Below are positions 19,466 to 60,302 of a stretch of DNA of 64,000 bases, one piece after another. The notes under the pieces were generated by a model, which saw only the letters and a program-made list of their open reading frames with translations, searched no databases and had not been told where the DNA came from. A program made the translations under genes and the position numbers. The stretch comes from Mesostigma viride (taxonomy: Eukaryota > Streptophyta > Mesostigmatophyceae > Mesostigmatales > Mesostigmataceae): the NCBI GenBank assembly GCA_009746045.1, contig RPFO01000288.1:1354911-1418910 (forward strand), read 5' to 3'. Position 1 is the stretch's first letter. Every line of letters starts with the position of its first letter.

Positions 19466-20109
19466 ATTTAGATGAACGCGGATCAGTGAGTTTCTGGTCT
19501 TCCCAAGATGTGATGAATGGAGCCATGGTTTCAACCAGCGGCTTTTAACCTTTACCACAGTTGCCTCACTACCCTGTGGTCACTAGCCTGAGGCGGCAGC
19601 ACCCACGGACGGTGTTGGGAAAAGACGCTTGGCCACTGCTGTGTCCGAGCCTTTCTAGGTCTCACCATTGCTGCCAGGCCTTGCACGCCTTGGCAGGTCC
19701 GCCACTGTCAATTTCCTTGGTTGCATCAATCCAGGACGTCTGTCCTTCCATGAATGACAGTAACGCTCTGGATTTATCCGTCATGACAAGTACCCGTCCA
19801 TCCCAGGCCTGCAGGACTGCCAGTCCTGAAGTCCTGTGACATTCTTGGTACCATCAACCAATATTGACCACAGTACCTCCTAGTGACAGTCGGTCCTGTG
19901 ACACGTAACGTGTGATGGTTCACCCAACACTGCCACGTGCCCTGTCCCTCACGTGTCCTTAGTCCTGGTACTGCTGTAGCGTCCGGCGGCATTACTTCGG
20001 GACTTGATAACTCTCAAGTTCCTTGTCCAAATGAGGCGTTTAGCACGGCGTTGGAAAGGCCACTTCAAGTATGATATGCTTAGCATATTGCATCACCAAT
20101 ATGCTAACT
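19466..20109 (-). repeat. 3' LTR of element A
   Basis: 644 bp. In element orientation it starts AGTTAGCATATTGG and ends ATCTAAAT. Just upstream in element orientation is the purine tract AAGAAAGGGTTGG (20110-20122). Confidence 0.93.
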
Positions 20110-20122
20110 CCAACCCTTTCTT
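20110..20122 (-). promoter_or_regulatory. Polypurine tract of element A
   Basis: On the minus strand AAGAAAGGGTTGG abuts the AGTT start of the 3' LTR. B and C have the same layout with GGATTGG. In LTR elements this tract primes plus-strand DNA synthesis. Confidence 0.8.
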
Positions 20123-21071: not shown

Positions 21072-24000
21072 TCAAGTCCCACCAGAAAAGGGGTCCATGA
21101 GCCCTTTGAGCACAGGGTATTGTAGCTCAGCCTTGCTCTCCAGCTTGGTGAGGGCGTCTGCTGGGTTGTCAACACCAGGCACATGTTCAAGATGAGCAAG
21201 GTAAGACATCTCCTTCAGCAACAAATAATCCAGATCCCTGCTCCTGGCGAGCTGTCTGTGCACAAACTGCACCATGCCCATGCTGTCTGTCTTGACCAGT
21301 GTGTGCAGCTGCAAGCTACAGGAAGCTACCTGACAGAGCTGGTAGAATAACTCCCTGAGGTAAAGAGCAGTGTGTAGCCCCTCACATATTGCCCTGCACT
21401 CAGCAATGTCACTGCTGGGCGTCACCCTGTTCTGTAACCTACTGTACCAGCTGACCAGAGAAGTGTGCTCCTGTTGTAGTGTAATGAGTGCTGCTGCCCT
21501 ACCCCTGACATCCGTCACCTTCCTGCTGTCCATGGAACTGTCCACAAAAAGCACCATGTTGAGTGGTTTGTACAAGTCCACAGCTGCCAGTATGAGTGGA
21601 GGTGAGCTCCTGACAGACTCAACCACCTGCTCTGCCCCTACCTCAACCAGCTGAGCATCTGTGAGCCTACTCAGCACCAACAAATCTGGGGCACAAATGC
21701 TAGCTAGCCAAGCCAACATTCCCCTGATTGTGGCACACCTGGCCTGGGTAATGGGCTGCTGGAGGGCATCAATGATCTGCTGAGGATAGTTGTTGCCACC
21801 CTCCATCTTGATAAACCAAGTACCTGCCCTCTTGATCAGCGTGGCCTGCATTCCACAAAACACCATGGGCTCATCCTGCTTCATGTGCTGGACCTTTCCT
21901 AACTCAAACCTCTTCTGGATCTTGGACAGTACTGAATCCACCCACTCAGGAGGCCCTAAAAGGTGCAGGTCATCTCCATGCAGAGATGCAAACACAGGCA
22001 ACCCTTCATGAGTACTCTGGAACAAGCAAGGATCAACTGGAGACACAGTAAAGCCACAGTGAGTTTTCAGAAACTTTTCCAGGCTCTTTCTCCAGATGAT
22101 AGGGCTGGACCTGAGACCCTCCAAACCCTTGAGTATTCTGAGATATTTTGACTTGATCTCTGCTCTCCACACCTTGGGCACTGTTACAAAGAAGGGAGGG
22201 ATATCACGCCACGTCTCCTTGGCCTGCTCCACATCACCTTTAAGAAAAGCCCTCTTGAAATCAATCAGCACAGAGCTGTACGCAATGCCCTTGACCAGGA
22301 AAGACAGATATATACACAGAACAATCCTCCAGGTATCATGCAGCATCCCAGGCGTATACAACTCCTCATCTGTCAGCTCCCCCGTGCCATGGTACTCAGT
22401 CACAACTGGCCTCACATGTGGCACCTGCACACCGTCTATCTCCTTCAGCTTGAGCACAAACAAGAGCCTTAGCAACTGATGCTCCCTGGGCAACTCATCC
22501 ACAGGCTCAGCACAGTTAGACACTATCCAGTCATGCCCACTGGAGACAAACCCTAGAATCCATGCCTTAGCCATCTTGGGGCTTTGCATCAACTCTACCA
22601 ACTGGTGCCAGGAAATAGGACTGTGACCAGCAATCTGGTACTTGTGCACCCCCAAGTCCCGTGGATCTAGGGTGGTTGGGATGATCAACAAGTCCTCAGC
22701 AATGGGCTCCTTGCCTTCAGGCCCCACACTCTGCTGCCCCTTCACAGCCTTGACTGCCACAGCTAGACCCTTGGAGTAGTGATATCTCTGGAGGGGCAAA
22801 CTGCCGTGACCTTCTAGTGCAAGCTCATCTGCTGACAGAGTCACTCCTGGCATGCACAAGAAATTCTGGCCCAAAATGGCAGGCCCCTGGTACCCTTCCA
22901 CCACACAGAACGCAGTGGGGACACCCAGGATAGGCACAGTCACTTCCCCTAGGATCTTCATTGTTACAGTGCCCGTAAAGTCACTCACTGCCCTGCAGCC
23001 AGCCTTATTCACCTTCAGGCCCTGAGCATCCTCCACCCTGATGATAGACACCTCTGAGTTAGTATCCACTTCTAGGGTAGCAGCCCAGCAAGAACCCCAT
23101 TCAGTCAACTTAGATACCTTGGGATCCTTGTGCTTGTTGAACATGAGCGACCGGACAATGTCTGCCATGAGTGGCCTCTTGGACCCTGGTGCAGGCCCAG
23201 CCCCCGTTGGCTCCACCACAGGTGATGCAGTTGCCTCCTGCACCTCATCATCATCAGAGGGATAGCCACCTCCCACGTCAGTGACAGGCACATCAACTAC
23301 CTGGTCCTTAACCTGGCCCTCCAGCCAACACTGGGGTCCAGGCCCGTCTGCAGGCCAGATTGCATGTGGCTTGCGTTCCTTGACGTTGGCCCAGCTCAAC
23401 CTGTAAACATGCCTGGGATTACTCTCCAAGGCCACAAGGCAGGAACGATTGGCATCTTCCACACAGGTCACCACCCCGTTCTGCCACTTGCCCCTCTTGC
23501 CCTGCATTGATGGCTCCTTCCACATTCTGACCTTCAGCCCCACCTGAGGCCTCAGCACATTCCAGCCCCTATCCTTGCGTCTCAACTGAGCAAACACCCT
23601 GTCTGCTTTCCTCAAGCATGCCTGGACCACTTCCTGGGCTAGCATCCAAACTGCAGTGCTACAGGATTGACAGCCACCCCGTCATAATAGTAGTTTATTC
23701 TGAGGTTCAACTGTTCTTCCACCTGCCTGGTCCACACTGCCCTCTCCAAAGCAGATGCTACCAGTGGCACCTTAGGTTCTGCCAGCACTACGGTCTTGAC
23801 CTCCCTGATGGATCTCTCCACAGCACCTTGCTGTCCATGGCTCTCCCTGGGCGTGACCAGCAGCTTGCATGGCAGTTGCTCCTGCTGTGACAGTAGGCAC
23901 TCAAACTGAATATCAGCCTGTACTGTCTTGTACACCCCAAAGCCTGGTAAGAGAGTCTGCAAGCCCAGCAGCAGGGTATTCCCCTTCATATCTGGCAGAA

Positions 24001-24609
24001 TCTGGAGCAGCCTGTACCTGCTAAATCTGTCCACTGCCACCAAAATGTATAAGCCCCTGATATGCTGGACGTCTACCTGGATGTCCCCCTTCTCCCTGGC
24101 AGGCTCCCTAGCATGGGACCTTGGCTTCTTGGCAGCATTCTCCTTACAGCACATTGCTCAGCTGCAGCCCTGCATGCTTCCCTCAGTGGCTCATCTCCAA
24201 TCTTCCAACCAAACATCTCAGCCATGGCTGTGTGACCAAAGATATTGTGCAGCCTGCGTCCAGCATCCGTGTAGCTCAGTTGCCTAGCCAGATTACGCAC
24301 CTGGGAAGACGCCTGGACGGGCCCTGCGTGTGAGGACGCAACATCCACCTTCTGCATCTTGGATCCAGAGGACCCAGCAGACCCTCCCAGCAGAGCATCT
24401 AGGCTCCCAGAGCCAACCCTGTCTGGGGACCCTCCACCTGTTGACAGTTGAGGGGATTGTTGTGCTGCAGCATGCATGCAATCTTGTGGAATGAGAACAT
24501 CAGTACACCCCTGGTGCTGATCAGAGGTGGCACCCTGCCCAGATTTATTTACATGTGAAGCTGTGTCCCCACAGGGTGTCTCACTATGTACACGGGACTG
24601 CTTCACTAG
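21072..24609 (-). pseudogene. Pol of element A (IN-PR-RT-RNaseH), two frameshifts
   Basis: The frame opens just after the gag UGA (24610-24612). It carries an N-terminal region with the HHCC-like LHNIFGHTAMAEMFGWKI, then shifts near 24140 into the integrase core (IQVDVQHIRGL, QADIQFE, SHGQQGAVERSI), then shifts near 23640 into an 857-codon frame. That frame holds an integrase C-terminal region, a protease-like LEVDTNSEVSII...GPAILGQNFL, RT (IDFKRAFL, ASLHGDDLHLL) and RNase H (LFVDSSMDSR, AECRAI, TDSMGM, NPADALTKL). All catalytic motifs are present. The two shifts break the polyprotein unless they are assembly indels. Confidence 0.9.
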
Positions 24610-25929
24610 TCACTTCTGATCAGACTGCCCCTTCTTCTTGTTTGGGCAATCCCTCTTCCAGTGACCTTCCTTGCCACAAGCAAAACACTTGCTCTTGCCA
24701 GACCCTCCCCCTGGGGCCTTGCTGTCCTGCTTGTTCTGGTTGCCTGAGGCCTGATTGTTATTCTGCCCCTGGCCACCACCCTTACCCTGCTGATGGCTGT
24801 TACGGTTGCCAGACTGGTTCCCCTGATTCTGGTTCCCCTGCTGACCCCTCCACCACCCTGGTTCTGCTCCTTCTGGGCCTGCTTCCTTCTCCTGCTGCCA
24901 TACCGTGTCCCAGATGGGGTACGGTTCTTGCCCTGGCTAGCCTGAGACGCTGACCCTCCCTGAGAACTGATACCCTTGCAGGTAGGGACCCGGGTCCTGA
25001 AGTTTAGTATCACACGCTTCAGAGCCCCCCAGGTGCCATCAGTGAGATCACAGAGCTGCCTAGCAGTAGCCCTACCTTCCTCTGACAAGCCCATCTTATC
25101 AAGAAGTGGTCTGCTGCTGCCCTGACTGTCACACTGAAGCCCTGCTTCTTGCCTGCCTCCACGATCAACTCAAACCTGGCCAGCTCAGCAGCCACCTCAC
25201 CCTTGATCTCAAACTCATCAAATTCTCTCTTCTTTTCCATGGTGAGATTGTGAACCCTGTCAGAAAACTCCTCCTTGATGTCATCCAGGAACTGCAGCCA
25301 AGTGTGCCCCTCTTCAGAGCATGCCTAGCCATGTCATTGACCCTTTCAGACGACCCTTGTTTGCGGTGGAAGAGTGAAACACCCTGACAATATCCACACC
25401 TGCTGCGACAGAGCCCACAACTAGCTTCATGTCATCAAGCCATTTATCCAGGTTGTCTTGCTTCAGGGAGGGTTGAGCGCTTTCTGCCCATTCATGACTG
25501 TCACAGCATCAGAAAATGGACGGGTGCCAGGCAACACACTCCCCACACGCACTGGTGGTGCCTGGGGAGGGTCAATCCTAGCCTCCAAACGCTCGGGCAA
25601 CATACCAGACACCCTATCGTGAACAGCAGCTTGCTTTGCAGCACGCACACCTGGGGTGACGATGGCGTCCTCCTCACCAGGCGTTGTGAGCACCACTGCA
25701 TCCGTAGGTCGCCTGGCACGCTTGACTTTCTCCGCCTCAGCTTGCCCATCACGCCACCGCTTGTGTGTTCTCCCGGCCTGGGGTCCATCTCTGGGATAGG
25801 TTGCCCAGCTGGCGCCTCCACGCCCCTCTCCTCCATCGCCTCCCCTTCCTCTCTGGCGATGTCCTCCTCTGCCGTTCGCTCCCGTTGCTCCTCGAATGTC
25901 GCCGCACCCCGGCTTGCCCTCCTAGGCAT
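24610..25929 (-). pseudogene. Gag of element A, zinc knuckle, ends at UGA-CUA
   Basis: Start ATG at 25929 (MPRRASRGAATFEEQRER), 68 bp after the ORF0 stop. The reading frame changes several times (about 25700, 25440, 25090 and 24840). The C-terminal part is Gln/Gly/Asn-rich with a CCHC knuckle CFACGKEGHWKRDC, then NKKKGQ and the stop TGA at 24612-24610 followed by CTA. Pol continues in that frame after the stop. Gag would form the virus-like particle. The shifts make this copy defective unless they are sequence errors. Confidence 0.8.
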
Positions 25930-25997
25930 TATATACAATGGCTGCGACCAACTTTGCAACAAGAAAACAGCAAACTCTCCACCTATCCTCCACCCCC

Positions 25998-26963: not shown

Positions 26964-26987
26964 ATCCGTCGACCAGACTGTAATACG

Positions 26988-27631
26988 ATTTAGATGAACG
27001 CGGATCAGTGAGTTTCTGGTCTTCCCAAGATGTGATGAATGGAGCCATGGTTTCAACCAGCGGCTTTTAACCTTTACCACAGTTGCCTCACTACCCTGTG
27101 GTCACTAGCCTGAGGCGGCAGCACCCACGGACGGTGTTGGGAAAAGACGCTTGGCCACTGCTGTGTCCGAGCCTTTCTAGGTCTCACCATTGCTGCCAGG
27201 CCTTGCACGCCTTGGCAGGTCCGCCACTGTCAATTTCCTTGGTTGCATCAATCCAGGACGTCTGTCCTTCCATGAATGACAGTAACGCTCTGGATTTATC
27301 CGTCATGACAAGTACCCGTCCATCCCAGGCCTGCAGGACTGCCAGTCCTGAAGTCCTGTGACATTCTTGGTACCATCAACCAATATTGACCACAGTACCT
27401 CCTAGTGACAGTCGGTCCTGTGACACGTAACGTGTGATGGTTCACCCAACACTGCCACGTGCTCTGTCCCTCACGTGTCCTTAGTCCTGGTACTGCTGTA
27501 GCGTCCGGCGGCATTACTTCGGGACTTGATAACTCTCAAGTTCCTTGTCCAAATGAGGCGTTTAGCACGGCGTTGGAAAGGCCACTTCAGGTATGATATG
27601 CTTAGCATATTGCATCACCAATATGCTAACT
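26988..27631 (-). repeat. 5' LTR of element A
   Basis: 644 bp, about two mismatches to the 3' LTR. The sequence just inside it in element orientation is CGTATTACAGTCTGG, the position of a primer-binding site. C has CGTATTACACGCC and B has CAAATTACAACC there. I cannot name the primer tRNA. Confidence 0.93.
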
Positions 27632-27636
27632 CAATC

Positions 27637-41479: not shown

Positions 41480-41612
41480 TGTAGTTAGGATTTTCTAGAT
41501 AGCTTAGAGTTAGGTTCGTTCGATCACGCGGCTTCCTCCACCCCATCCATCATGGAATATGTGCTACATGATCTCCCAACGGAGGCATGTTATAATTTAA
41601 TTATTTTTTTAA
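41480..41612 (+). mobile_element. 3' UTR and tail of the 38-41 kb LINE
   Basis: After the stop comes a CCATCCATC run, then the hairpin CTCC-CAAC-GGAG (about 41573-41584) and an AT-rich tail to about 41612. The same arrangement follows the minus-strand copy at 14449-14600. Confidence 0.85.
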
Positions 41613-42921: not shown

Positions 42922-43275
42922 AAAAGGATTTACGTTAGATGGATAGAGATTGTTACGCTCTTTCCAACGGCACCTTGAACGCCTCATTTGGTTAAGGAAC
43001 AGGGTACTGGGAGTCTGTGTAATCAATTGATTGACAGTTCAGCTGTCACAGTGCAGCTGAATACTTGGACGCGTCCCTAACAACCTATATGTGTGACTTG
43101 GTCGCACCGGGACGCTAGTTCTTGCGTGCACGTTCTTTTGGCACTGCGACCCTGTCGCCTGTGCTGCGTGCAGTCTTGGAAGTGACGTGACTTACGTCGG
43201 TGTTCCTTGTTATTAATAAAGGCAACTTCCTGCAAGAACCATGGCGGAATTCTTGGCATTCACCCTCTTACAACT
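42922..43275 (+). repeat. 5' LTR of element C, internally deleted
   Basis: 354 bp against 620 bp in the 3' LTR. It lacks about 8 bases near the start and about 260 bp in the middle (the join is at about 42995, with a short foreign AGGGTACTGGG). The rest is almost identical to the 3' LTR, ending CTTACAACT. Confidence 0.92.
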
Positions 43276-43299
43276 CGTATTACACGCCTCGTTCCAAAT

Positions 43300-44016: not shown

Positions 44017-45956
44017 GTCGGCCAATTTTTTTTTTCCAGTGCTCGTCGACATTTTGTCAAATTTTCAGCGGCGATTCGCGGGGCGGCGGCGACACCGGCG
44101 CAGGCAGCACTTGAGACAGTTTTTTTGTATATACCTTGTCCATGTTCCCAAGAAAAGTCCTTATTTTAGGACCAGTTTGAATTAAAAAATATATGTGCAA
44201 ACATCAAATTTTGACCCTGGCATTTTTACCACTGACAGATAACACACTTTTTGAATTTTGGACAAAAACCTGGGTTCAAATAATTACATTTAGTGCCTGA
44301 ATGGACCCTGGCCCATGGCAGGCCTCAAACCGCGAATTTGGTCAAAATGAGAATTTAGGACCAATAGGACCAATTAGTGTCAACGCATGACCATGCTATC
44401 CACACGGTCCCTTGAGCATCTTACAAGCGCTAGGGGACCCTACGAGGCCTTGGGATGGCGGGGCAGCGTATAACAAGGCCATACCCTGCTGTGGCTGCCT
44501 CTATATATACGCGTGCTTAACGGTGTCACAGATGGTGCAGGTAATGCAATATACGGTTGCATGGTTGCTGAGGTTGCCCGGCTTGAACATGGCCCACCCC
44601 TTGCGGTAAACTTTCTCTAAGCATATGCCAAACCTTCTTTGACATCACGGACATGCTGGCCACCACCCAGCGATGAAAAAACATTGCATTTGCATTGCAA
44701 CTAACACATGAATGCAGCCAAATCAAGTTACAGAACAACGTTGTGCTAACATGCAACGCTTTGTGAGCGAATTCAGGGTGCATGTAACACGTAAACCATA
44801 TTGTATATACTGTCTGAGAACACCCTGAACGACTGCAGGCCATAGAACCTTGGTTTATAACTAACACATGAGTAAAACTGCTCTTACGCATGTGTGTTTT
44901 AGCTGCAGCGGACGACGAAGATAGAGACGTAAAAAATTGTATGACGTAAACCAACTATGTGTGACAGTTATGTGCACAGAGAGCGTCCCCTCTTTTTAGG
45001 CATAGCTGGCTGACTCAAAACACCACGACAGCGTTGCCAGTTACACTCATGATCTAGGACACCCCGGCACGTACCTGCTACTTACGTCGCCTCATTCCAG
45101 ATGGTTGCAAAAAAGTCGCTGAAATCCGCAGCGAGGTCAGCTTTCCGAGAGCTGAGCGCACCAAAGCTGGCCAACCGGTTCGAAAATGATATAAACCACG
45201 CTTGTGCTGCGTTCTAGGTCCAAGAAATACCGAAAGTGAAGACCTATAAGGTGCGCTCGCTGCCCAGCCTGAACGTCCCTAAAACATGGTCAACAATGGA
45301 AATCGGGCAAGAATATCACGGCCCAGGCGCTTCCATGTCAAATACTCCGTTTATAAACTCCAGACTATAATCAAAATCGTCCACAAAAATGTCCTGGCTT
45401 GATTCGCACCACAATTGCTAATACACTAACATGTTTGTGCCAAAATCGACCCTCCGCGAGCAGGCGATCTGCGACCCATTTGTGTTGTGCCGCTGTGCTA
45501 CAGCGCTACACATAAAAACTTGCGCAGAAAATTTCACAGCCTTTAAGCATAACTAACGACCTTTCGTTTTTGCTACTGGGCGCCCGAAATGATAAACGCA
45601 CGTGAAAACGCCGGCCACGATTGTCAGGTCGCCATATCCACCTCAGATCATTCCCGCACCCACTTTTTCGCTCCAAAATCGGTTATATTTTTGGTCGAGG
45701 TACCTACTTTCCCGCCATTATACCCGGTACCCGGGTACGGAATCCGGGTACCATGTGCCGGTACCACGGGTCGGGTACATCATGCCGGGTACGGTCCACA
45801 TGGGGTACGGTCCATATAGTGACCCCCCCCCCGGTACCTCGGTTATAGTAAATTGGTCCTTAATTTAGGACTTTGTCCTAAATTAAGGACCGTGGGAGGC
45901 TTAACAACCTTCATTTGCTGCGTTGCTGAGGTGTTTTGGATAGCTTGTTGAGCATA
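44017..45956. other. 1.9-kb non-coding stretch between ORF0 and gag of element C, probable insertion
   Basis: In A and B only about 70-100 bp separate ORF0 and gag. Here 1.9 kb without a gene intervenes. It has a cluster of GGTACC/CGGGTAC motifs (45698-45841) bounded by inverted CGAGGTACC and GGTACCTCG, and a 17-bp-arm hairpin at 45855-45891. A related AAGTCCTTATTTTAGGACC lies near the left side (44155-44173). This suggests a non-autonomous DNA element inserted in C, but no clean TSD was found. Confidence 0.5.
45855..45891. repeat. Perfect 17-bp-arm hairpin
   Basis: GGTCCTTAATTTAGGAC, a TTT loop, then GTCCTAAATTAAGGACC, just upstream of the gag of element C. Confidence 0.95.
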
Positions 45957-46681
45957 ATGGCAGACGGGCGCCGTAGCAAAGGTGCCCCAGCTAGTGGGAA
46001 TAATGGTGGTGCTGGTAGTGGGACAGCTCACGTAGATGACGTGGGTGTCACCGGGGAAATTTCCAATGTTCATCACAACCCTAATAATACACAAGCTGTT
46101 CATGGCTATGACCTTACCACCCAGGGTTTGCTTATTGTGAATCAACTGCAACCTGTCACGTCTGACTCAAAGCCCAAGCAGGCTGAGGAGTTTGTGGAGG
46201 GGCTAGAGGGGTTTCCAAGTTTGTACGGTGGTACAAACTATTACCAGATCTGGATAGGTAGCCAGACTTTTGGCAAGTGTACAGATCAGATAAAGGACCT
46301 CACTAGAGAGTGTAAGAAGGCCAACAAGGCCTGGTCCAGCTACGTGGCAGAGTTAAAGGAGCTGCTAGAGGATCAGAGGAAGAAAGTGGGGATCCATTGG
46401 CAGGATAAATACCAGGGGTGGGAGGTCAAGGGGGACCTGATCCAGAACTTCCTTAGCTATTGTAAAATGGTTGAGGAGGGCAGGGCTCACGGCTTTAATG
46501 TTGCTGACAACATAGCCCTGACAAACTGGCTCAAGGTTTCTGGGCTGGACAAGGCTACACGTGGCTCTTTAAAGGTCATGTGTGCCCCACACTCAACCCT
46601 CAAGGCCTACAAGGTCATAATCAAACAAGCACTCGAGGCAGAGGAGCTGTTTGAGGGTGGAGTGCCAGCAGTGAAGGCTAC
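45957..46681 (+). pseudogene. Gag of element C, N-terminal part, cut by element B
   Basis: Start MADGRRSKGAPASGNNGGAG, with a capsid-like helical region (YVAELKELLEDQRKKVGIHW, EEGRAHGFNVADNIALTNWL, AYKVIIKQALEAEELFEGG). The frame is intact up to the B insertion in codons GCTAC (46677-46681). It continues at 54712. Without B the gag frame would be open through the junction. Confidence 0.88.
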
Positions 46682-47377
46682 AGTTAACGCCAAGCGCATT
46701 GGCGTGATCCTGATTCGGCATATCTCTGCGATTCCAGCGGCACCGGAACGAGTTCATTCCGACAAGTATCAAGAAAGTTATGGCGTTCCGACTTCCCGGT
46801 CGCGCGCGAGCGCGAGCCGGCTGTTCTTCTAAGTCGGACGTGAATATTTGCCGACGACATATGGGGTCGACAGTAATTCCTGGGCTGACAGGAATTAGGT
46901 ACTGTACCTACGACGGTATTGGATTAATACGTCGTACGCAGGAAATAGGAACCTTAACCTGTGGTCTGTTGGTACCGCAGGCTTAGTCCTGGACTTCTAG
47001 GTGCAGATGCAATAGTCACTGTGGACTGTGCTCTGTGGTCACTGTGCCTGTATGGCAGACCTACTGTATAGGAGCTGGGCGCTGTACAGGTAGTGAATAC
47101 TGTACCGGGGGTGTTATTACTGAGCAGGCCTCCTAGGCTGCTCAGGACTAGCAAGCACAGTGCACAAGTATATAAACAATAGGCCAGTGCCAATTGGGCA
47201 TCTCTTGCGAGCCCGCCTCACGTGTTGTGCCTTGACTTGGCAAGCGCGTGTACAAGCCTCAAGTGTGTGAGCGCTGTAACATTATCCAATTTTAACAAAG
47301 CTCCGTTTCCAACCATATTCACACATTGCTGCATTGCAACCATATCCTTCACATTGCGTTTGATAAGAACGTTAACT
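46682..47377 (+). repeat. 5' LTR of element B
   Basis: 696 bp with perfect 8-bp inverted ends AGTTAACG/CGTTAACT. A TATATAAA box at about 47169-47176 is a candidate promoter for the element transcript. Confidence 0.95.
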
Positions 47378-47470
47378 CAAATTACAACCAGTCTCAGCGG
47401 AACGGCCAGGAGGGTCGTTGCCGGTTGCGGTGTGCAGCGTTGACGACGCGAGGAGCTCGTCCGGTGGTGA

Positions 47471-48384
47471 ATGGTGCAGGAAGAACAACGGCAGCAGGAT
47501 TTCCGGTTTCGGCAGTCTGCTGGGGGTTCGATTTCGCCTGAATTGCGTCGTGTCGTTCGGGATCTATCTTTATTGCTTGCAGATCGTCCGCCTGTAATCG
47601 CAGCTTCGTGCAATTCGTCGACGACCAGGTCGAAGATTGGGAGCGAATTCTGCGACACGTACAAACCATCGTCATTCCGGAGCACCGGAGCATCGACGAC
47701 CTCGAGCAGGAGCTTCACGGTTGGTCGGCATCCAGACGGTGATTACAGCAGTAGCTGAGCGAGTGCGGACGGAGTTGGCGGCAAGGCGAGGCGAGGTTGC
47801 GGAGGCAGCTGGCGCAGGGCGACACGAGTTTGTACCGACAGCAGCGGGTGCGGGTACCACGTACTTTCGCAGGCATCATCGGCGACGAGGGTGTTGCAGC
47901 GGGGCCAGTTAGGCGTGAACGACGCGGAGCGGAGCATACAGGCGGCTTGCAGAGGTCGGGGCGACAGCGGAAGCCATCACCGGAGGACAGCGCGCGCAAG
48001 AGTCGGCAGGTTTCCGGAGCGAGCAAGAGTTCCTTTTCAGGAACTGCCCCGCCCCTTCGCGTTCGTGTGACGCGTTGGGAGGAGTTTGCACCTCTTGGGT
48101 ACGATAGTGACCTTGAGGTGGGAGCAGGGGGTGTCGCTGGGCTAGGCGACGAGACACTTGGCGACCACGAGGTGCCAAGATACAATCCGCGGGGTGCCAA
48201 CGACGGGTTGTCACCTGTCTACTATACCAACGGTGACGATTCAGTCATCGCGGGCCGACAGCGGGTCGACGACGGCGCAGCAGGTAGCAGGGTACCAGAG
48301 CTGATTGTGGTGAGCGACAGCGACGACGACAGCGACAAGGAGAACCAGGACGCGCCTGGGGCCAGCCGTGGTGGTCTTGCCTGA
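47471..48384 (+). pseudogene. ORF0 of element B, frame-broken
   Basis: Coding-looking pieces in three frames: SISPELRRVVRDLSLLLADR (from 47471), then QFVDDQVEDWERILRHVQTI with IDDLEQELHGW (about 47610-47740), then VITAVAERVRTELAARR and a last frame to 48384 with LRVRVTRWEEFAPLGYDSDL and a Ser/Asp/Glu-rich end (VVSDSDDDSDKENQD). Same place as ORF0 in A and C, and similar helical then acidic character, but little direct sequence similarity by eye. Confidence 0.55.
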
Positions 48385-48486
48385 GTGGTAACACTTGGCA
48401 CTTTCCTTTCTTGTTCAGTAGCTTATATTGCTTTAATTGCTGCTTGGCCACTTGGCTGGCTGTAGCAGATCTGAACAGAGGCCATC

Positions 48487-49672
48487 ATGGAGGATGGAGC
48501 TATCAACCAACAAGCGGGCTTTATGGGCTTCGCGCGGCGCGGCGCTGGGATGGATGGACGAGATGGACGCGATGGACGCGGTGGACGCGATGGACGCGGG
48601 GACGGCCAGGCGCTGGGAGACCAGGCTGAGGTGCCAGATAATCAGAGCCAAGGATCGCAGGGCGGGCAGCACGCGCCAGCCGCAGATCAAGCGGCGCCTA
48701 AGCGACCAACCGTGCTGAGGGGTACGCGGTGCTAGGCCAGTTTCAGTCCATCAAGGACAATTGGCAGCCCCGGGATGCTGAGAGGATGTTAGAGGACATG
48801 AACTTGTACACGGAGATATACAACGGTGACAAGCTTCGCATCCTGGCGTCTAGTGCCTACATACGGCAGTCGGCGAGGCGGCTGTTCAAGTTTGTTCGGG
48901 AGCGACACGCGGCGGGGGACACCTGGCGGCGTTTATGACGCGACTCAGGTCGTTCCTGAGTGACAAGAGGACCATAGATGGGTCCCACCTGAAGCAAGAA
49001 TACCTGGACTACAAGCCCATCAAGGGGCAGCTAGTGGTCCACGCCTTTGAAGACTTCGTCAAGCTGAGGGAGGACGCCATGGCCAAGGGCTTCTTCGTCG
49101 CAGATCGGATGGCCATGGGCGACTTTCTCAAGTCGCTGCAGCTGGATCCGGTCACCATGGATAATGTGACCATCCACATGCGACAGGTCCATGGCTGGGC
49201 AGCCATGACGGACCAGTTGTATGAGTGTTTCAGCGGCAAGTACGTGGGTGGTAAGCGCCCTCGTCAGGGTGATGAGGAGGCCACTGAACCCACGGTTAAG
49301 TCCATGAGGGGATCGGGCCACGGGGGCCCAGCGCCCTCGAGAGGGCCTGAGACCTCTTCAAGGGGTCGAGGAAGGTCCAGGAGGGGGCGTGACAGAAGGG
49401 CTGGACGGGGGACCCCGCCGAAGTCGGGACATCCACAGTCCCAGTTTGACTTCAAGAGGGTGGGTGGTCCTCCCAAGGCTGGGCCCAGCAGTGGGACCTC
49501 ACGGGACATCAGTCAGGTGGAATGTTATTTCTGCCAGGGGAAGGGTCACTTCAGGAATGAGTGTCCCTCGTACCTGAGGCAGGAAGGTCAGAGCAAGCCA
49601 GCTCAGGGTGGCAGCAAGGACAAGGCTGGTCCATCCCAGGACAAGGGCAAGGGCAAGGCTGCTGATCATTGA
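48487..49672 (+). pseudogene. Gag of element B, zinc knuckle, ends at UGA-CUU
   Basis: Start MEDGAINQQAGFMGFARRGA with a GMDGRDGRDGR repeat. Frame changes near 48730 and 48920 join QFQSIKDNWQPRDAERMLED and MTRLRSFLSDKRTIDGSHLK. Capsid-like helices follow (EDFVKLREDAMAKGFFVADR), then an Arg/Gly-rich region and a CCHC knuckle CYFCQGKGHFRNEC. Stops at TGA 49670-49672, followed by CTT. The next codons stay open in the same frame into pol, so Gag-Pol would need only readthrough of this UGA. Confidence 0.85.
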
Positions 49673-52600
49673 CTTGAGCCTGCACACATCCCTGAACCCT
49701 GGAGGGTGCCCCCAGGGGTGTGTAATGAAGCTGCTAGTGACAGCAGTGAGGGGCAGCCCCATGCTCTAGTGAAAGAGCCTATTGGACACGATGGGGCAAG
49801 CTTGGTTACCACAGAGAGTATGCCAGCTGTAGCTGCAGTGGTTACTCGCCAACGTGCCCGCCATGGCGGTGCTGAGCCTGAGGTAGGACCTGGTGATGTG
49901 GACCCAGGTGGATCTCAGAAGCATTCTGACCGTGCAGGACTGGCACAGGATGGTCAGGATGAGGATAGGGCTGGAGACAGTCTGACAGGCACGACCCTGG
50001 TGCCTCCTGTACATAAGGGATCTGTACATACCTTGAGTGCTAATAATGACAATAAAAGGTTTTCTCTCTTGTATGACATTGCCTCAAGGTTGCATACCAT
50101 GTTTGGCCATGCAGCTCAGTCTTTGCAAGTTGCTAGACGGCTGGGAGGAAGTGAGTTGTACTCCATCTGCCAACAGGTTGCTCAAGCTTGCAAGTGCAGG
50201 CTAGTTGCTAGAAAGCCCAAGCAGTCTCATGCCAGGACTCCTATTTTGCAGCCAGGCCATGTGCAGGTAGATATTCAGAGAATCAGGGGTTTGAAGCTGC
50301 TGGTGGCAGTGGACAGATATACCAAGTACAAGACCCTAGAGATCCTGCCTGACATGGAGAAGCCTACATTGATTGCTGCTCTGAAGTTGACAAGGAGCAG
50401 GTACCCTGGGTTGGAGTTGTTGCAGTGTGACATTCAGTTTGAGTGCTGTGAGAACCTGCCAGAGTTTCCAGAGTTGCTGATTACACCCAGGGAGAGCCAC
50501 GGCCAGCAAGGGGTGGTGGAGAGAGCCATCCAAGAGATCAAGACTGTGCTGCTGGTGGAGAGGATTCCAAGGACGTCATCTGCCATTGTGACATCTGCAT
50601 GGCTACGTTCTGTGGAGGACAGGCTGAACCTGAGGACTCCCATGTTCTTTGGTGACATTGCCATCAATCCTCTTATGCTGCATACCAGGATGCTGCCAGC
50701 TGATGCTGAGCAGGCATGGAAGGAGAAGCTAGAGGCCAAGTTCCTCAAGCTGAGGCAGAAAGACAAGGGCTGGAGTGTCCTAGAACCTAACGTTGGACAA
50801 CAGGTTGTTGTGTGGAAGGAACCAAGCTTTCCAGGGAAACGTGGCAGCTGGCATGATGGGGTGGTGACCCGAGTAGAAGCCGCTGGCCATAAGTGCTGGG
50901 TGGCCATTGATGGCTCCCAAGCAGTGCACCGTCTGTCCTGGTCAAAGATCCGTCCCCGGGGAGGTAATCAAGGAGACCTCTTCCAGGTGCCCGCTGGTGT
51001 ACAAGGCGGGGGTGACGTGGAGCTTCCTGATCAGGGTGCTACAGCTGTATCGAGCCCTCAGGGTGACCCTGGCCCGGCCCCTGGGGTACCTTCACATACG
51101 GTGGTTGGGCAAGCAGGCGGACAGGCTGCACCTCCGGAACGGCCCGACACCAGGCCTAGGGGTGTGCGTCTATCAGATATTGTACAGGCTTTGCAAAGAG
51201 CCAAGAAGGAGCCTAAGGTGTCCAAGCTTGTCCAGTTGGATGAACCTGAGGTAGCTGCCATGGAGATAGATACCAATGCACAGGTTTCTGTCATGGGACC
51301 TCAGCATACAGGAGAACTGCTGGTCGGAGAACCAAGTTGCCCCTGGGTGTCTGATTTCAGTGGTAGGACGCATCTAAGGGTGTTGGGAGAGGTTACTGCC
51401 CCTGTCATGGGTGTGGATGTGACCTTCCTTGTCCTAGAGGACTATGATGGCCCTGTGATTTTGGGTCAGAATTTTCTGGGCAATCCTGGGATTTCTATCA
51501 GAGCTACAGCTCTGAGAAGAGATGGCTGGGGGATGATTCCCCTAGAAAATTTCAGGACAACATTTCCAGTCAGGTGCAGGGCCAAGCCGGTCAAGGGTGT
51601 AAAATGGGATGAAGGGGAGGTGCCCCCAGCGGCCAGTTTGGTGATTCCAGCTGTGTTGCACCCCAGCAGTATTGGCATAACTCACAGGAGCCTTGCTGCA
51701 CACTCTCCTTTGACATATGACCAGCTGGTCCAAGAGATGAGCTCGCCTACTTTGTTTGAGGCTTGGAAGCTCGCCTTCTCCAAGGCATTGGAGGAGTGGT
51801 TGCAGTTTGAGTGTGCTGCACCAACAGACAGACGTCCCCCAGCATCAAGGAAGCTTGCTTTGAGATTTGTGCTGAAGAGGAAGGTTGTGGATGAGGTATC
51901 AGTGCCCCATGTCAGGCCTGTCCTGAATGAGTATCACGGCACGGGGAGTCTGCCAGGAGAGGAGCTATACACGCCAGGGATGCTACACGACACATGGAGA
52001 ATTTTGCTATGTCTCTACGTGGGGTTGCTGAACAGGGGAGCAGCTATGTCATCAGTGCTGCTGGACTTCAAGAGGGCATTTTTAAAATCTGATCCAGAAG
52101 TGGCCAGGAGGGTGTGGAAGCAGGATGAGCCTTACTGTGTTGAGGTGCCTGCCATCTGGAAGCTGGAGCTGCATCAACAATTCCTGGTTATTCTGAAGGG
52201 CCTGGAAGGACTCAGGTCGAGCCCAATCATCTGGAGACTCACGCTGCAGGAAGCTCTGATCAGTGAGTGTGGCTTGAGAGTGTCTTCAGTTGATCCCTGT
52301 TTGCTGCTGGCCCAATGGGAGGGTCTGCCAGTGTATGCTAGTTTGCATGGAGATGATCTGCATTTGCTAGCCCCCACGACCTGGCTGAAGAAGTTTATTC
52401 CTGTCATCAGTGGCAAGTTTTCACTGGGCAAGGAGCTGTGGCAGGAGCCCAACAAGCCTGTAGTGTTCTGTGGAATGCAGGCTACCCTGTTCAGGAGGGA
52501 CGGGGAGTGGAGTATCAGGCTTCAGGCTGGAGGAGATTATAAACAGACCATTGTGAAGGCCTTGCCAGAGAAGATCACCCAGGCTGCAGGACCTGAGTTG

Positions 52601-53263
52601 AGAGGCATGTGGGCCTGGTTTGCCAGCATCTGTGGTCCGTCTTTGATGGTCCATAGCAGAATGCCTGATGAGGTGCTTGAGGATGAGAAGCCTCGAGTCA
52701 TAGCCCGGTTGGTGGAGAGTACCCCTGATCTGATTTTGTCTGGGATTGACTTTGCCCAGCCTATCACCTTGGAGATCTTTGTTGACAGTTCCATGGATGC
52801 TCGCCAGGTTACCAAGGTCAGGGGGAGATCTGCTGCTCTGTTTGCTTTTTATCAGAGCAGGGCAAGTTTGTTCAGCTGGTACAGCAGACTGCAGAAGAGG
52901 GTCTGTATCAGTTCAGATGTGGCAGAATGCAGGGCCATATGCGAGGGGATCCAGTCCAGCCTGTACATAAAGGAGTTAATGCTGGAGCTGGCTTCAGTTA
53001 CCCCTTGGACCTTGCAGATGGAGACGTTGTTGCTAACAGACAGCATGGGTATGGTCCAGTTTGTTCACAAGCAGCTGGCCAGGAGCCGGGACCTGGATTA
53101 TTTGTTGCTGAAGGAGTTGGCCAGTTTGGTTGACTTGAAGCATATCCCTGGCGAGGAGAACCCTGCTGATGCATTGACAAAGCTGCCACACAAGGCCCCA
53201 GCCCAGTACAATGTACTGAGGAAGCTCATGAATGCTGACTGTCAAGTCGGTCTATCTGTCTAA
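49673..53263 (+). CDS. Pol of element B: integrase - protease - RT - RNase H, uninterrupted
   Basis: Open from the codon after the gag UGA to TAA at 53261-53263. Numbering from 49706, domains in order: HHCC-like zinc region (about 127-165, LHTMFGHA ... CQQVAQACKC); integrase core with D189 (VQVDIQRIRG), D242 (QCDIQFE) and E272 (GQQGVVERAIQEIK); integrase C-terminal region (about 370-440); retropepsin-like domain with D522 in MEIDTNAQVSVMG and GPVILGQNFL at 583-591; RT with D787 (LLDFKRAFLK) and HGDD at 881-884; RNase H with D1027 (FVDSSMD), E1074 (AECRAI), D1112 (TDSMGM) and PADALTKL near the end. Integrase before RT is the Ty1/copia order. The protease after integrase and its DTN triad are not usual. 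D-x29-E is shorter than the usual spacing. No protease signature was seen between gag and integrase. Confidence 0.93.
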   Translation, partial: LEPAHIPEPWRVPPGVCNEAASDSSEGQPHALVKEPIGHDGASLVTTESMPAVAAVVTRQRARHGGAEPEVGPGDVDPGGSQKHSDRAGLAQDGQDEDRAGDSLTGTTLVPPVHKGSVHTLSANNDNKRFSLLYDIASRLHTMFGHAAQSLQVARRLGGSELYSICQQVAQACKCRLVARKPKQSHARTPILQPGHVQVDIQRIRGLKLLVAVDRYTKYKTLEILPDMEKPTLIAALKLTRSRYPGLELLQCDIQFECCENLPEFPELLITPRESHGQQGVVERAIQEIKTVLLVERIPRTSSAIVTSAWLRSVEDRLNLRTPMFFGDIAINPLMLHTRMLPADAEQAWKEKLEAKFLKLRQKDKGWSVLEPNVGQQVVVWKEPSFPGKRGSWHDGVVTRVEAAGHKCWVAIDGSQAVHRLSWSKIRPRGGNQGDLFQVPAGVQGGGDVELPDQGATAVSSPQGDPGPAPGVPSHTVVGQAGGQAAPPERPDTRPRGVRLSDIVQALQRAKKEPKVSKLVQLDEPEVAAMEIDTNAQVSVMGPQHTGELLVGEPSCPWVSDFSGRTHLRVLGEVTAPVMGVDVTFLVLEDYDGPVILGQNFLGNPGISIRATALRRDGWGMIPLENFRTTFPVRCRAKPVKGVKWDEGEVPPAASLVIPAVLHPSSIGITHRSLAAHSPLTYDQLVQEMSSPTLFEAWKLAFSKALEEWLQFECAAPTDRRPPASRKLALRFVLKRKVVDEVSVPHVRPVLNEYHGTGSLPGEELYTPGMLHDTWRILLCLYVGLLNRGAAMSSVLLDFKRAFLKSDPEVARRVWKQDEPYCVEVPAIWKLELHQQFLVILKGLEGLRSSPIIWRLTLQEALISECGLRVSSVDPCLLLAQWEGLPVYASLHGDDLHLLAPTTWLKKFIPVISGKFSLGKELWQEPNKPVVFCGMQATLFRRDGEWSIRLQAGGDYKQTIVKALPEKITQAAGPELRGMWAWFASICGPSLMVHSRMPDEVLEDEKPRVIARLVESTPDLILSGIDFAQPITLEIFVDSSMDARQVTKVRGRSAALFAFYQSRASLFSWYSRLQKRVCISSDVAECRAICEGIQSSLYIKELMLELASVTPWTLQMETLLLTDSMGMVQFVHKQLARSRDLDYLLLKELASLVDLKHIPGEENPADALTKLPHKAPAQYNVLRKLMNADCQVGLSV

Positions 53264-54010
53264 AAGCTGAGAGCTGGGTGCTTAAGTCTCTGGATATCAG
53301 GCTGGGAGCTTGATTGTACATAATCCTGAGCACACCTTGAGGGGTGAGACATGTCTCTGGTGTGGGAATGTCTGACATTGTCTCTGATGGAGAGATGTCT
53401 ATCTGGGGTTTTCATCTCAGTCTGAGGTTTCCCCAGATCTGTGGTTTGTGGGCGGGGTTCGATTCCCTGGTGCCGTCTTAAGGCGGAGTTTCACGGACTG
53501 GCTGACCCATCCACCATGCTGGTGAGGTGGCGACAGGTCCCCTGATTTTCCACGGTTGGAACGAGTATGGGAGCTTGTGTTTTGCATGTGCTTCGCGTAG
53601 ATGTTGTGTCTGGTTCGATAAGGGGCAGCAGACCGGCGCCGACTCCCGTCTGGGGGTCAGCAATGTTTTCTGATGAGCTGTTGTGGGTGATCTGTGGGGT
53701 TTCGCCTAAGGTCCTGAAGGTTGTACATACTTCTCAAGTTCTTAGCTGAACACCTATGGGCTGCCACAGTTGGCCAACCTCTTGTACATGGGTAACACAA
53801 CGAGCCTCCCGTGAAGGGATAGGGACTCATTGTAATTTGTTTGTGCTCCTGAGCCAGTATGGGTGCTATGTACATATAATAAGGAATCCAAGCTGACTGT
53901 CATGCCCAGCGGGTTGTGACTTGTAGTCGGGGAGGATATCCAGTACCCATTGTGTGTGTTTGTATGTAGACTTGTGTGAGCTGCTACAGCTCAAGAAAAG
54001 AAAGGATTGG
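53264..54010 (+). other. Non-coding region between pol and 3' LTR of element B
   Basis: About 750 bp. Contains the T-arm-like GGGGTTCGATTCCCTGG at about 53453-53470 and ends with a purine tract AAGAAAAGAAAGGATTGG at 53993-54010, just before the 3' LTR. Confidence 0.8.
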
Positions 54011-54706
54011 AGTTAACGCCAAGCGCATTGGCGTGATCCTGATTCGGCATATCTCTGCGATTCCAGCGGCACCGGAACGAGTTCATTCCGACAAGTATCA
54101 AGAAAGTTATGGCGTTCCGACTTCCCGGTCGCGCGCGAGCGCGAGCCGGCTGTTCTTCTAAGTCGGACGTGAATATTTGCCGACGACATATGGGGTCGAC
54201 AGTAATTCCTGGGCTGACAGGAATTAGGTGCTGTACCTACGACGGTATTGGATTAATACGTCGTACGCAGGAAATAGGAACCTTAACCTGTGGTCTGTTG
54301 GTACCGCAGGCTTAGTCCTGGACTTCTAGGTGCAGATGCAATAGTCACTGTGGACTGTGCTCTGTGGTCACTGTGCCTGTATGGCAGACCTACTGTATAG
54401 GAGCTGGGCGCTGTACAGGTAGTGAATACTGTACCGGGGGTGTTATTACTGAGCAGGCCTCCTAGGCTGCTCAGGACTAGCAAGCACAGTGCACAAGTAT
54501 ATAAACAATAGGCCAGTGCCAATTGGGCATCTCTTGCGAGCCCGCCTCACGTGTTGTGCCTTGACTTGGCAAGCGCGTATACAAGCCTCAAGTGTGTGAG
54601 CGCTGTAACATTATCCAATTTTAACAAAGCTCCGTTTCCAACCATATTCACACATTGCTGCATTGCAACCATATCCTTCACATTGCGTTTGATAAGAACG
54701 TTAACT
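54011..54706 (+). repeat. 3' LTR of element B
   Basis: 696 bp. Differs from the 5' LTR at about 54229 (G for A) and about 54578 (A for G). Ends AACGTTAACT, next to the TSD GCTAC. Confidence 0.95.
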
Positions 54707-54711
54707 GCTAC

Positions 54712-55105
54712 CCAGGCAGGTGGGCGTACCCAGGGTGGCTCCAAATCGTCCGAGGCTGACCGAAGCCAAGGAGGGCGTAGGGGCAACCACAACAAGCGAA
54801 AGGCCAATCATTCACCCGACCCTGACGGGAGGTCACACTCCAAGTCGGTGTTCAGGCGGGTGGGTGGTCAGCCCAAGCAGGGCAACGCGTCTGACAACGG
54901 GGGCAGTGGCCAGGGCAAGTCAAAGATACAATGCTACCTGTGCAAGGGGTGGGGGCACATCAAGAAGGAGTGTCCCAGCTTCAAGAAGTCCCAGGGCCAG
55001 GGCAGCAACAAGAATAACAACAACAACAACAAGAAGAACAACAACAAGTCCCAGGCAGGCCAGCCTTCAAAGGGCAGTCAGCAAGAAGACAACAAGGAGC
55101 AGTGA
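54712..55105 (+). pseudogene. Gag of element C, C-terminal part after nested B; ends UGA-CUG
   Basis: Resumes the gag frame after the B insertion with GGRTQGGSKSSEADRSQGGR, then the CCHC knuckle CYLCKGWGHIKKEC and an Asn/Lys-rich tail. TGA at 55103-55105 followed by CTG. After the stop this frame stays open to 55247, but pol of C runs in another frame from 55133, so a frameshift occurred in the overlap. Confidence 0.88.
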
Positions 55106-55132
55106 CTGTCTGAGGCAACCCCTACACACCTT

Positions 55133-58100
55133 AATTCACCCAGGGGGAGGCCAGGTGCTCCAATGCAGATTTTATATCTGGGCAACAAGAGGGTGATCTC
55201 CAGGTTCAGGGTGGCCCCAGGTCACCTGGAGAGGTACAGGTTCCTATGAAGACGTCCTTGACAGCTGATGCAGCTGTAAGAATGTCTGACCCCATGCATC
55301 CTCGTGCTGGGCACGAGGGTGGACCTCTCATTTTGAGAGAAACCAATGTACAACCACAGAGGGGTGTGAAGGCCTCTGGTGGTATGCATGTGGTCCCTGC
55401 TGGCGGTCCAGGTGTTGGGCATGAGCAGGGTGACTCAGGCTCTGAGTCAGAACAGGATGGAAGTCAGCATGGTGATGCTGGACAACCTGACAGCACAGTC
55501 CTGACTGTGCCAGGGACTGCTTCCTCTGTGTACCAGGAGTTGGGTGCCCGAATCCACAACATGTTTGGGCATGCCACTTCTCTGTCCAACAACTTTGCCT
55601 TCCGTATGGGCAGGGCACCCCTTCTTAAGGCGTGTCAGCAAGCTGCCTCACGGTGTAAGTGCCAGTTGTCCTCCAACAAGCCCAGGAAATCACATGCCAA
55701 AGCTCTACCTCAGAGCATTGGTGATCTGCAGTGTGATATCCAACACATCAGGGGCATGCAACTGTTGGTGTGCGTGGACAGGTACACGAAATACAAGGTG
55801 CTGGAGCATTTACCTTCTATGAAGAACAGGTACTTGCTGGCTGCCCTGCAGAATGTAAGAGCCAAGTTTCCTACCACAAGGATCCAGGTGGACATGCAGT
55901 TTCAGCATCTCAAGGGTGATCCTACCCTTCCTGAGTTGCTGGTTACACCTAGGGAGGCTCATGGGCAGCAGGGTGCTATCGAGAGGGCAATCCAGGAGGT
56001 CAAGAAATTGATCATCTCTGAAGACTGGGTACCCTTGTCTGCACCTGCACTTGTCAGGAGTGCATGGCTGAGGAACGTGGAGCAGCAGCTGAACAGCAGG
56101 GTTAACTTCTACTATGATGGAGTTGCTGTCAGCCCAATGGGTCTATATCATGGCCTGTGCCCACCACATGTGCTGGAGGGCTGGAAACATGCTGCACATG
56201 TCACCTTTGCCAAGCTGAGGGAGAAGGACCGGGGTTGGAAGATGCTGGAGCCACAAGTGGGTCAGAAGGTCCTAGCTTGGAAGGAACCTAGCCTTTATGG
56301 CAAACGTGGTAGCTGGAGTCCTGGGGTGGTTACCCAGGTTGATGAAGCTAGCCACGCATGCTTGGTCAGCATGGAGGACGAACCAAAGCATGTACACCGG
56401 CTGAGTTGGTCATATGTCAAGCCTAACCTGATGAATGAGGGCAGTCAGGCACAAGGCTCACAGGATCTGCAGGATTTTCAGGTCCCAAGTGACATCACTG
56501 ACGCAACGACCACATCTGTTGCAGGGGAATCTGTCAGCCCTGGCCAGGTTGCAGAGGTACTTGTTGAACAGGCTGCAAGGTCAACAGCTGGGGAGTCAAC
56601 TGTCAAGCCCAAGGCACTAACCAAGCCCAGGGGGACAAGTTTGGCTGGATTGATTGGGGCTCTACAAAGAGCCAAGAAGCAGCCCAAGGTAGCCAAGCTC
56701 AGGTGGCATGGCAATCTGGGGCTGGACACTGCCTTAGAGGTAGACACTAATTCTCAGGTTTCCATCATTGGGACCAGGGCTGCAGCAGGGTACAGCATGA
56801 CTGAACCCAGCTATCAGTTTGTGTCTGACTTCAGTGGCGGGGTACACGTGAAGGTACTGGGTGAGGTATCATTCCTATCCTTGGACAGGACACTGCTTTT
56901 TGTGTCTTGGAGGGCTATCAAGGACCTGCTCTTCTGGGGCAGAATTTCCTATGCCAGGATGGGTAGTGATCACGTCCTCTCTCCTGACTAAGGAAGGGGC
57001 TGGTCAGGTCCCACTGATTAATTTCAGGACCACTCACCTATCACGTGCAGTAACCAGGTCGGTTAAGCGTGTGCAAGTGTGCCAGGGGCAGGAGCCCTTG
57101 GTTGATGACCTCATATTGCCAGCTGCTAGTCATCCAAGCAGTTTGGGCATTGGTCCTCACTCACTTGCTGGACACAGCCCTATCAACTACCAAGGCCTGG
57201 TGAAGCTCATGTCCTCTCCCATTATGTGTCCCCAGGTCACACTGGGTCTGATTAAATCTGGGGAGGACTGGATCTCCAAGAAATGCGTGGAACCTGTCAA
57301 TGACCTGCCTCCTGCACGACGTCTACTCAAGCTCAAGTTTGTCATCAAGATGAAGGAGGTGGACGGGGTCAAGGTACCACATGTCAGGCCAGTGCTGAAT
57401 GAGTTCAAGGGTACTGGTGAGTGCACTGCTGAGGAGTTATATACCCCTGGCATGCTGCATGATACTTGGAGGCTGCTGCTGTGTGTATTTCTAGGCCTTC
57501 TCAACAAGGGCTTGGACTATGGCTCAGTGGTGGTAGACTTCAAGAGGGCATTTCTGGAGGGGATGCAGATGTGGCACAGGAAAAGTGGGAGGGCAAGACG
57601 CCTTTCTATGTCAGGGTGCCTGCTGTATGGAAAAGGGATATTCACACTGAGTTCCTTAAAATCCTCAAGGGCCTGGAGGGCCTGAGGTCAAGTCCAATAA
57701 TCTGGAGGGAGACTCTCAACCGTTTCCTGAAGGAGCATTGCAACTTGAAGGTCTCTCCTGTAGACCCCTGTCTGTTTCTGGGGCAATGGGAAGGCCTGCC
57801 AGTGTATGCTTCGCTGCACGGGGATGACCTACATCTGATAGCTCCCACGTCGTGGCTTAAGGAGCTGATCTCCATCATTAAGTCCAAGTTTCCTCTGGGT
57901 AGGGAGCAATGGCAGGTGGAGAATGAGCCTCTGCTGTTTGTGGGCATGGAGGCCACACTGGTGAAGAAGGGGGGGAGTGGCGTATGCTGCTGGTGGGGGG
58001 CAATGATTATCAAGAGACCCTCATTAGCAAGCTTCCTCCAACCATCACACAGGCACTGTGTCCCATGGTGAGGGGCATGGTTGCTTGGGTGGCAGGCATT

Positions 58101-58727
58101 TCCAGGCCAGACCTTATGGTCATAGCCAGGTTGCCTGATGACATGCTGGTGGAGCTAGGGTCTGCCAAGGTGGCTGATCAGGTCAGGGCTTCATCTGGCA
58201 TTCTGTTGTCTGCAGTGGATTTATCACAACCCATTTGCATGGAGCTGTATGTGGATAGCTCAATGGACAGCAGGCAGGTCTCCAAGGTCAGGGGCAGGGC
58301 TGCAGGGCTCTTTGTGCTCAGACAGGAAGGCCTGGGGAGTTTGGTGAGCTGGTTTAGTCGCCTGCACAAACGGGTGGCTGTCAGCAGTGATGTGGCAGAA
58401 TGCAGGGCTATTTGTGAAGGCATTCACACAAGCCTTTATCTGAAGGAGTTGCTTCATCAGATGACTTCTAACACTCCTTGGCCACTTCAGGTTACCACTC
58501 TTCTAAAAACAGACTCCATGGGGATGGTGCAGTTTGTGCACAGGCAGATGGCCAGAAGTAGGGACTTGGATTATCTCCTTCTTAAGGAGTTGTCCTCCTT
58601 GGCCAATATTGAGCATATCCCTGGGGTTGACAATCCTGCTGATGCTTTGACCAAGCTAGTGCAGAAGGCAGCAGTGCAATACAAGGTTCTTCAGTCTCTG
58701 ATGGACCCATCTCAGCAAGCTGTCTAA
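55133..58727 (+). pseudogene. Pol of element C (IN-PR-RT-RNaseH), at least three frameshifts
   Basis: First frame to 56991: HHCC-like (IHNMFGHATSLSNNFAF), integrase (LQCDIQHIRGM, VDMQFQH, GQQGAIERAIQEVK) and the protease N-half (LEVDTNSQVSIIG). A shift near 56870 damages the end of the protease. The next frame to 57685 has VPHVRPVLNEFKGTGE and VVDFKRAFLEG. A shift near 57560 leads to LKGLEGLRSSPIIWRETLNR and ASLHGDDLHLIAP. A shift near 57985 leads to RNase H (LYVDSSMDSR, AECRAI, TDSMGM, NPADALTKL) and the stop at 58725. Same domain order as A and B. The copy is dead. Confidence 0.9.
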
Positions 58728-59677: not shown

Positions 59678-60297
59678 AGTTAACGTAAAGGATTTACGTT
59701 AGATGGATAGAGATTGTTACGCTCTTTCCAACGGCACCTTGAACGCCTCATTTGGTTAAGGAACGTAAAAGTTATGACGTTTCCTAGGCTGTGCCGACAG
59801 TACCCGGCGCGCCACTGTGGGCGCGTACGGACACAGGATGTACAAGTGTCACTTTGATAGTCCGCAGGACGTTGACAGGACTTGTACAGGACTTGATGGT
59901 CAATTGATAGGTAGGCGTGCTGTAGCGCGCCAGGACCTAGGAGACAATTGATGCTGAGTAGTGTACGGATAGGTCCACAGGACTAGCCGTATGGACAATT
60001 GATAGATCTGCGCGCCAAAGGCGTGCCAGAGTCTGTGTAATCAATTGATTGACAGTTCAGCTGTGACAGTGCAGCTGAATACTTGGACGCGTCCCTAACA
60101 ACCTATATGTGTGACTTGGTCGCACCGGGACGCTAGTTCTTGCGTGCACGTTCTTTTGGCACTGCGACCCTGCATGTCGCCTGTGCTGCGTGCAGTCTTG
60201 GAAGTGACGTGACTTACGTCGGTGTTCCTTGTTATTAATAAAGGCAACTTCCTGCAAGAACCATGGCGGAATTCTTGGCATTCACCCTCTTACAACT
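59678..60297 (+). repeat. 3' LTR of element C
   Basis: 620 bp, starting AGTTAACGTAAAGG and ending CTTACAACT, next to the TSD CTATG. Its start matches the B LTR for the first eight bases. Confidence 0.93.
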
Positions 60298-60302
60298 CTA
60301 TG

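Follow-up and report, generated by a model that had tools for sequence, protein, structure and literature searches.

Where in pol can a copia-type retrotransposon carry its protease? A stretch of 64,000 nucleotides from Mesostigma viride (contig RPFO01000288.1, positions 1,354,911 to 1,418,910 of the forward strand), the whole of which we call the window, holds three related long terminal repeat (LTR) elements, A, B and C, that raise this question. An earlier note had proposed that all three carry an aspartic-protease-like domain (PR) after integrase (IN) and before reverse transcriptase (RT), and we located it there: in element B, motif positions along the pol open reading frame (ORF) give the order IN, PR-like domain, RT, RNase H (RH). 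The order IN-PR-RT-RH is present in four lineages, namely A, B, C and A2, a sister of A. We argue below that the elements probably form a copia-related LTR lineage in which the protease was moved or replaced, with Gag followed by a leaky UGA-CUN stop and then IN-PR-RT-RNase H.

The pol ORF of the earlier note is enclosed by the complete LTR element B (Table 1). Read from a GTG it spans 49706-53263 and encodes 1,185 amino acids (1,196 from stop to stop). The IN motif residues are H141/H146, C173/C175, D200, D253 and E283, with 29 residues between the second D and E. Pol ORFs of A (L027, 1,179 amino acids) and of A2 (L069, 1,190 amino acids) have the same domain order as B. In a relative of C (L060, 1,187 amino acids), IN, PR and RT lie in a single frame, and sequence resembling another element stands in place of its RNase H end. 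The C-terminal half of the domain in the window copy of C is damaged, as had been claimed. A and C are 46-48% identical to B in IN, 42-50% in PR and 55-59% in RT; the A2 PR is 46% identical to that of B and 79% to that of A.

Is the domain conserved as a functional unit? Over B residues 501-625 pairwise identity averages 0.40-0.63, but 0.17-0.24 in the linker at 426-500; toward RT it drops just to 0.28 (626-650) and then rises again. Between A and A2, the ratio of nonsynonymous to synonymous substitution (dN/dS, by Nei-Gojobori; dS is near saturation, so the ratios are approximate) was low in the four domains (PR core 0.108, IN 0.113, RT 0.074, RNase H 0.073) and higher in the linkers (pol N-linker of 111 residues 0.70, IN-PR 0.61, PR-RT 0.25). 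The PR-like domain is under purifying selection. Since DTN is also retained in A2, selection keeps both the domain and its Asp. An order common to four lineages, with a domain under such selection, is not an accident of one copy, and we rejected that idea.

Is it a retropepsin? Sequence profiles, Pfam and re-alignment of the fold each favour the retropepsin superfamily, in register at the catalytic Asp. Like retropepsins (clan AA; PF13975, gag-asp_proteas), the domain has an Asp-Thr active-site turn, both residues being invariant, and an invariant closing hydrophobic-hydrophobic-Gly (h-h-Gly) motif; its profile matches to retropepsins are collinear, and the profile matches retroviral enzymes in PDB. 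A strict version of the motif pair, defined after the sequence had been viewed, appeared in 0 of 5,000 residue shuffles of the B polyprotein. Foldseek gave 216 matches at E <= 10 and none at E <= 0.001, and retropepsins filled 33 of the 50 rows listed. Several points weigh against the assignment. The third residue of the turn is Asn in all four lineages, giving DTN where retropepsins have the D-T/S-G triad; the domain is very divergent and below the Pfam cut-off; its motif spacing is 65, compared with 71 in three retropepsins of the same assembly; the fold model is of low confidence, with a predicted local distance difference test (pLDDT) score of 47; and the similarity scores are each weak, some shuffles reaching the same values. 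An hhalign comparison of the domain with retropepsins of the same assembly was not significant, and a single-sequence PDB search with the domain and AlphaFold2 with a three-row alignment were both uninformative. The earlier note would have given up its reading had residues 500-620 not looked retropepsin-like; profile and fold re-alignment favour retropepsins there, and together they strongly suggest that the domain between IN and RT is one. Separately, the best PF13975 match of the assembly (L061, C2011:489701-489949, 71 bits) looks, by eye, like a free-standing bacterial-type retropepsin, and the contig that carries it, of 1.49 Mb, may come from an associated bacterium.

Does the domain still cut? 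It could be a retropepsin by descent that the change to DTN has silenced, serving as a dimerisation or folding module, with processing by host proteases or no cleavage at all. The Asn common to the four lineages speaks for this, set against the eight PF13975 matches read from the assembly, 8 of 8 of which have DTG or DSG. Loss of protease activity, however, usually frees the Asp to change. Here Asp, Thr and h-h-Gly are invariant, dN/dS is as low as in IN, and the scans of the element found no second protease that could replace it. We consider an inactive enzyme unlikely. Less likely still, and in our judgment improbable, is that the domain is no protease but a beta-rich linker domain peculiar to the lineage, its likeness to retropepsins being due to chance. 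The singly weak scores would fit such a domain, as would a loose motif pair that arose in 345 of 5,000 shuffles of the B polyprotein, but the agreement of profile, Pfam and fold re-alignment on one superfamily, in one register, and the absence of the strict pair from the shuffles argue against it.

Perhaps a standard protease had been missed upstream of IN? No retropepsin pair or copia-type DSGA motif was found in the three forward frames of A, B and C, either from the 5' LTR to IN or from RH to the 3' LTR, and a pattern scan of the complete internal regions of A and B returned nothing but the domain between IN and RT; a protease interrupted by frame changes could escape scans of this kind. 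Among the upstream ORFs tried with Pfam, CCHC knuckles alone passed the cut-off, and no weak match was a protease. Hence the earlier statement that A, B and C have no protease motif between gag and IN agrees with both kinds of scan, and within the frames and ORFs that these covered we rejected a missed standard protease. That these are ordinary copia elements, with a true protease before IN too divergent to detect and the domain between IN and RT an extra copy, is scarcely credible. In its favour, sequence before IN varies, and in the window gag of A and of B is spread over several frames (by eye), so that a divergent domain could hide there. Against it, neither type of motif nor any protease-like Pfam match was found before IN, and the pol N-linker changes almost without constraint. 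For B, it is the N-terminal part of gag whose window copy lies in other frames (by eye). Relative to the window, eight B copies had 0 to 7 gaps in the gag region (one was covered over 444 bases only).

To what are the neighbouring domains related? By hhalign, a three-lineage RT profile of the B group matched canonical copia RT at E 2.6e-6. RVT_2 matched two of three lineages (best E 5.3e-8), B alone being unmatched, and the RT profile was uninformative against PDB. Integrases made up 58 of the 60 matches listed for the IN profile in PDB, and rve matched weakly in all three lineages (best E 0.0016). The canonical copia family L059 of the same genome (1,226 amino acids) has Pol_BBD at 75-151, rve at 257-356 and RVT_2 at 747-987. 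The IN profile did not match its IN, and its protease region, which is the Pol_BBD and reads WVLDSAASSHM, has no detectable relation to the retropepsin-like domain. Since RT is related to that of L059, and IN and the protease region are not detectably so, we take RT-RNase H to be copia-type. The PR and IN profiles match retroviral enzymes in PDB, where copia enzymes may be scarce; on these similarities the lineage may be a chimera. Patterns for IN and RT hit 26 and 169 stretches, respectively, in viral contigs, and none was confirmed as a relative.

With Ty1/copia elements (Pseudoviridae) the new elements share LTRs, 5-bp target duplications, a CCHC gag, IN before RT, an RVT_2-type RT and a terminal RNase H. 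They differ in having PR after IN, not the order GAG-PR-IN-RT-RH; in the h-h-Gly motif of PR, where L059 has a Pol_BBD-type region; in an RT motif HGDD for the HVDD of L059; and in the LTRs of B, which end AG...CT. As in Ty3/gypsy elements and retroviruses, PR directly precedes RT. The Ty3/gypsy (Metaviridae) order PR-RT-RH-IN was rejected because RT is copia-type and IN precedes RT; IN stands before PR instead of closing pol.

How would Gag-Pol be made? The frame ahead of pol ends UGA CUN, and pol continues in that frame, in A, in A2, in B and in L060, the relative of C; the C copy of the window has pol in a different frame from gag. By locus, the codon after UGA was CUU in 8 of 8 for B, CUA in 2 of 2 for A and 1 of 1 for A2, and CUG in 1 of 1 for C (L060, with the stop at 172-174). 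Stop codons in the context UGA CUA are known to be leaky. UGA-CU before pol is likely a leaky stop in all four lineages, and we infer that Gag-Pol is made by stop readthrough. Gag alone would then be the main product and Gag-Pol a minority. Once Gag-Pol is packed in particles, PR would dimerise and cut on its N-side, freeing Gag and IN; it would also cut on its C-side, freeing RT-RH, or remain joined to RT. IN would thus be an upstream cargo dependent on the first cut, whereas canonical copia has PR right after Gag. A bolder version of this proposal, possible but rather doubtful, is that a copia lineage lost its own protease and gained, between IN and RT, a retropepsin of retroviral/gypsy type whose DTN site is new; with UGA-CUN readthrough and AG...CT LTRs, it would be a distinct superfamily-level lineage with its own maturation pathway.

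The element family is carried in many copies and is very abundant in the genome. All 39 B pol matches scored (the best of 10,179 candidates) were identical over 1,196 residues, as were all 150 B PR matches scored (the best of 4,639). With the PR of A as query, 132 of 150 scored at 96-100% identity and 18 at 81-82%. These lists run from the best match down, so the counts are lower bounds and speak for the scored matches; such searches saturate on near-identical copies, and only the element-A PR query reached a sister group. The element-A copy with a frame-split IN (869-amino-acid open frame) exists in at least 18 near-identical copies, including that of the window, and may have multiplied by duplication or through intact copies acting in trans.

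Element A spans 19466-27632 on the minus strand, with a 5-bp target duplication of ambiguous boundary (by eye), and element C spans 42923-60298 on the plus strand. Element B is inserted in the gag of C, another element of the same group; C is therefore older. The LTR termini of B (46682-46689 and 54699-54706) are not TG...CA, and A and C also seem to begin AGTTA after a purine tract ending GG (by eye); ends other than TG...CA are unusual among LTR elements. Ahead of gag, A has an extra 5' ORF (26001-27101, minus strand, 367 codons stop to stop) and C has two adjacent ones (43186-44016, plus strand, 113 and 162 codons), for which Pfam gave no match above cut-off.

Table 1. Coordinates of features of elements A, B and C in the window (TSD, target-site duplication)
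Feature	Position	Strand	Remarks
B 5' LTR	46682..47377	+	696 bp, 2 mismatches vs 3' LTR; ends AGTTAACG...CGTTAACT
B gag, C-terminal part with CCHC knuckle	48854..49672	+	zf-CCHC E 1.7e-4; ends UGA CUU, in frame with pol
B gag/pol stop	49670..49672	+	UGA, then CUU
B pol ORF	49673..53263	+	stop to stop, 1196 codons
B IN	50063..50959	+	residues 131-429; H-H-C-C, D,D,E; possible SH3-like C-terminal part
B retropepsin-like domain (PR)	51215..51562	+	about residues 515-630, between IN and RT
B DTN, putative catalytic Asp533-Thr-Asn	51269..51277	+	residues 533-535
B ILGQNFL, clan AA h-h-Gly motif	51458..51478	+	residues 596-602
B copia-type RT	51713..52507	+	residues 681-945; DFKRAFL 798, HGDDL 892
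B copia-type RNase H	52778..53190	+	end approximate; from about residue 1036, FVDSSMD 1036
B polypurine-tract-like stretch	53993..54010	+	precedes 3' LTR; read by eye
B 3' LTR	54011..54706	+	696 bp; flanking TSD GCTAC
A 3' LTR	19466..20110	-	boundary uncertain by 1 base
A RT and RNase H	21075..22610	-	RVT_2 E 4.9e-7 at 30.0 bits, 29.2 bits in another scan; just under cut-off 31.6
A retropepsin-like domain	22773..23120	-	DTN...ILGQNFL
A IN	23370..24276	-	split over three frames in window copy; single frame in L027
A gag/pol stop	24610..24612	-	UGA CUA
A 5' LTR	26988..27632	-	645 bp, 2 mismatches
C 5' LTR, partial	42923..43276	+	TSD TATGA
C retropepsin-like domain	56686..56963	+	broken by frame change: DTN half and GQNFL half in different frames
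C 3' LTR	59687..60298	+	264 bp where 5' copy has 10

Elsewhere in the window, a tandem array with a 73-bp period runs from 1805 to beyond 4276 (the repeat finder reported 45-46 register copies, which overlap). An ORF at 40008-40817 resembles a non-LTR reverse transcriptase (by eye); the segment that directly follows, 40834-41494, has an inverted copy at 14591-15255. Neither Rfam nor a tRNA scan found anything in the window.

The earlier note suggested that GAG-IN-PR-RT-RH would be a new arrangement, and we recognised no report of an IN-PR-RT order in the titles and abstracts listed by searches of open-access PubMed Central, so the order may be new as far as those searches go. The profile of Pseudoviridae by the International Committee on Taxonomy of Viruses gives PR, INT, RT-RH (PMC8515867). 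In a large plant survey, GAG-PR-IN-RT-RH is the order used to classify copia elements, and elements with an unexpected domain order were dropped as likely mispredictions (PMC6317226). For fungal copia, too, IN is placed between protease and RT, and the protease is described as the domain with greater variability than the rest (PMC3248453). The gypsy order is that of Troyka, a further odd lineage (PMC12440569).

If the arrangement proposed here is right, the position of the protease would not be fixed even in a successful LTR lineage, and classifiers based on domain order could miss real elements, since pol order is used for LTR retrotransposon classification. Gag-Pol maturation could begin in the middle of pol, and the DTN site would be a natural test of the need for Gly in the aspartic-protease triad.
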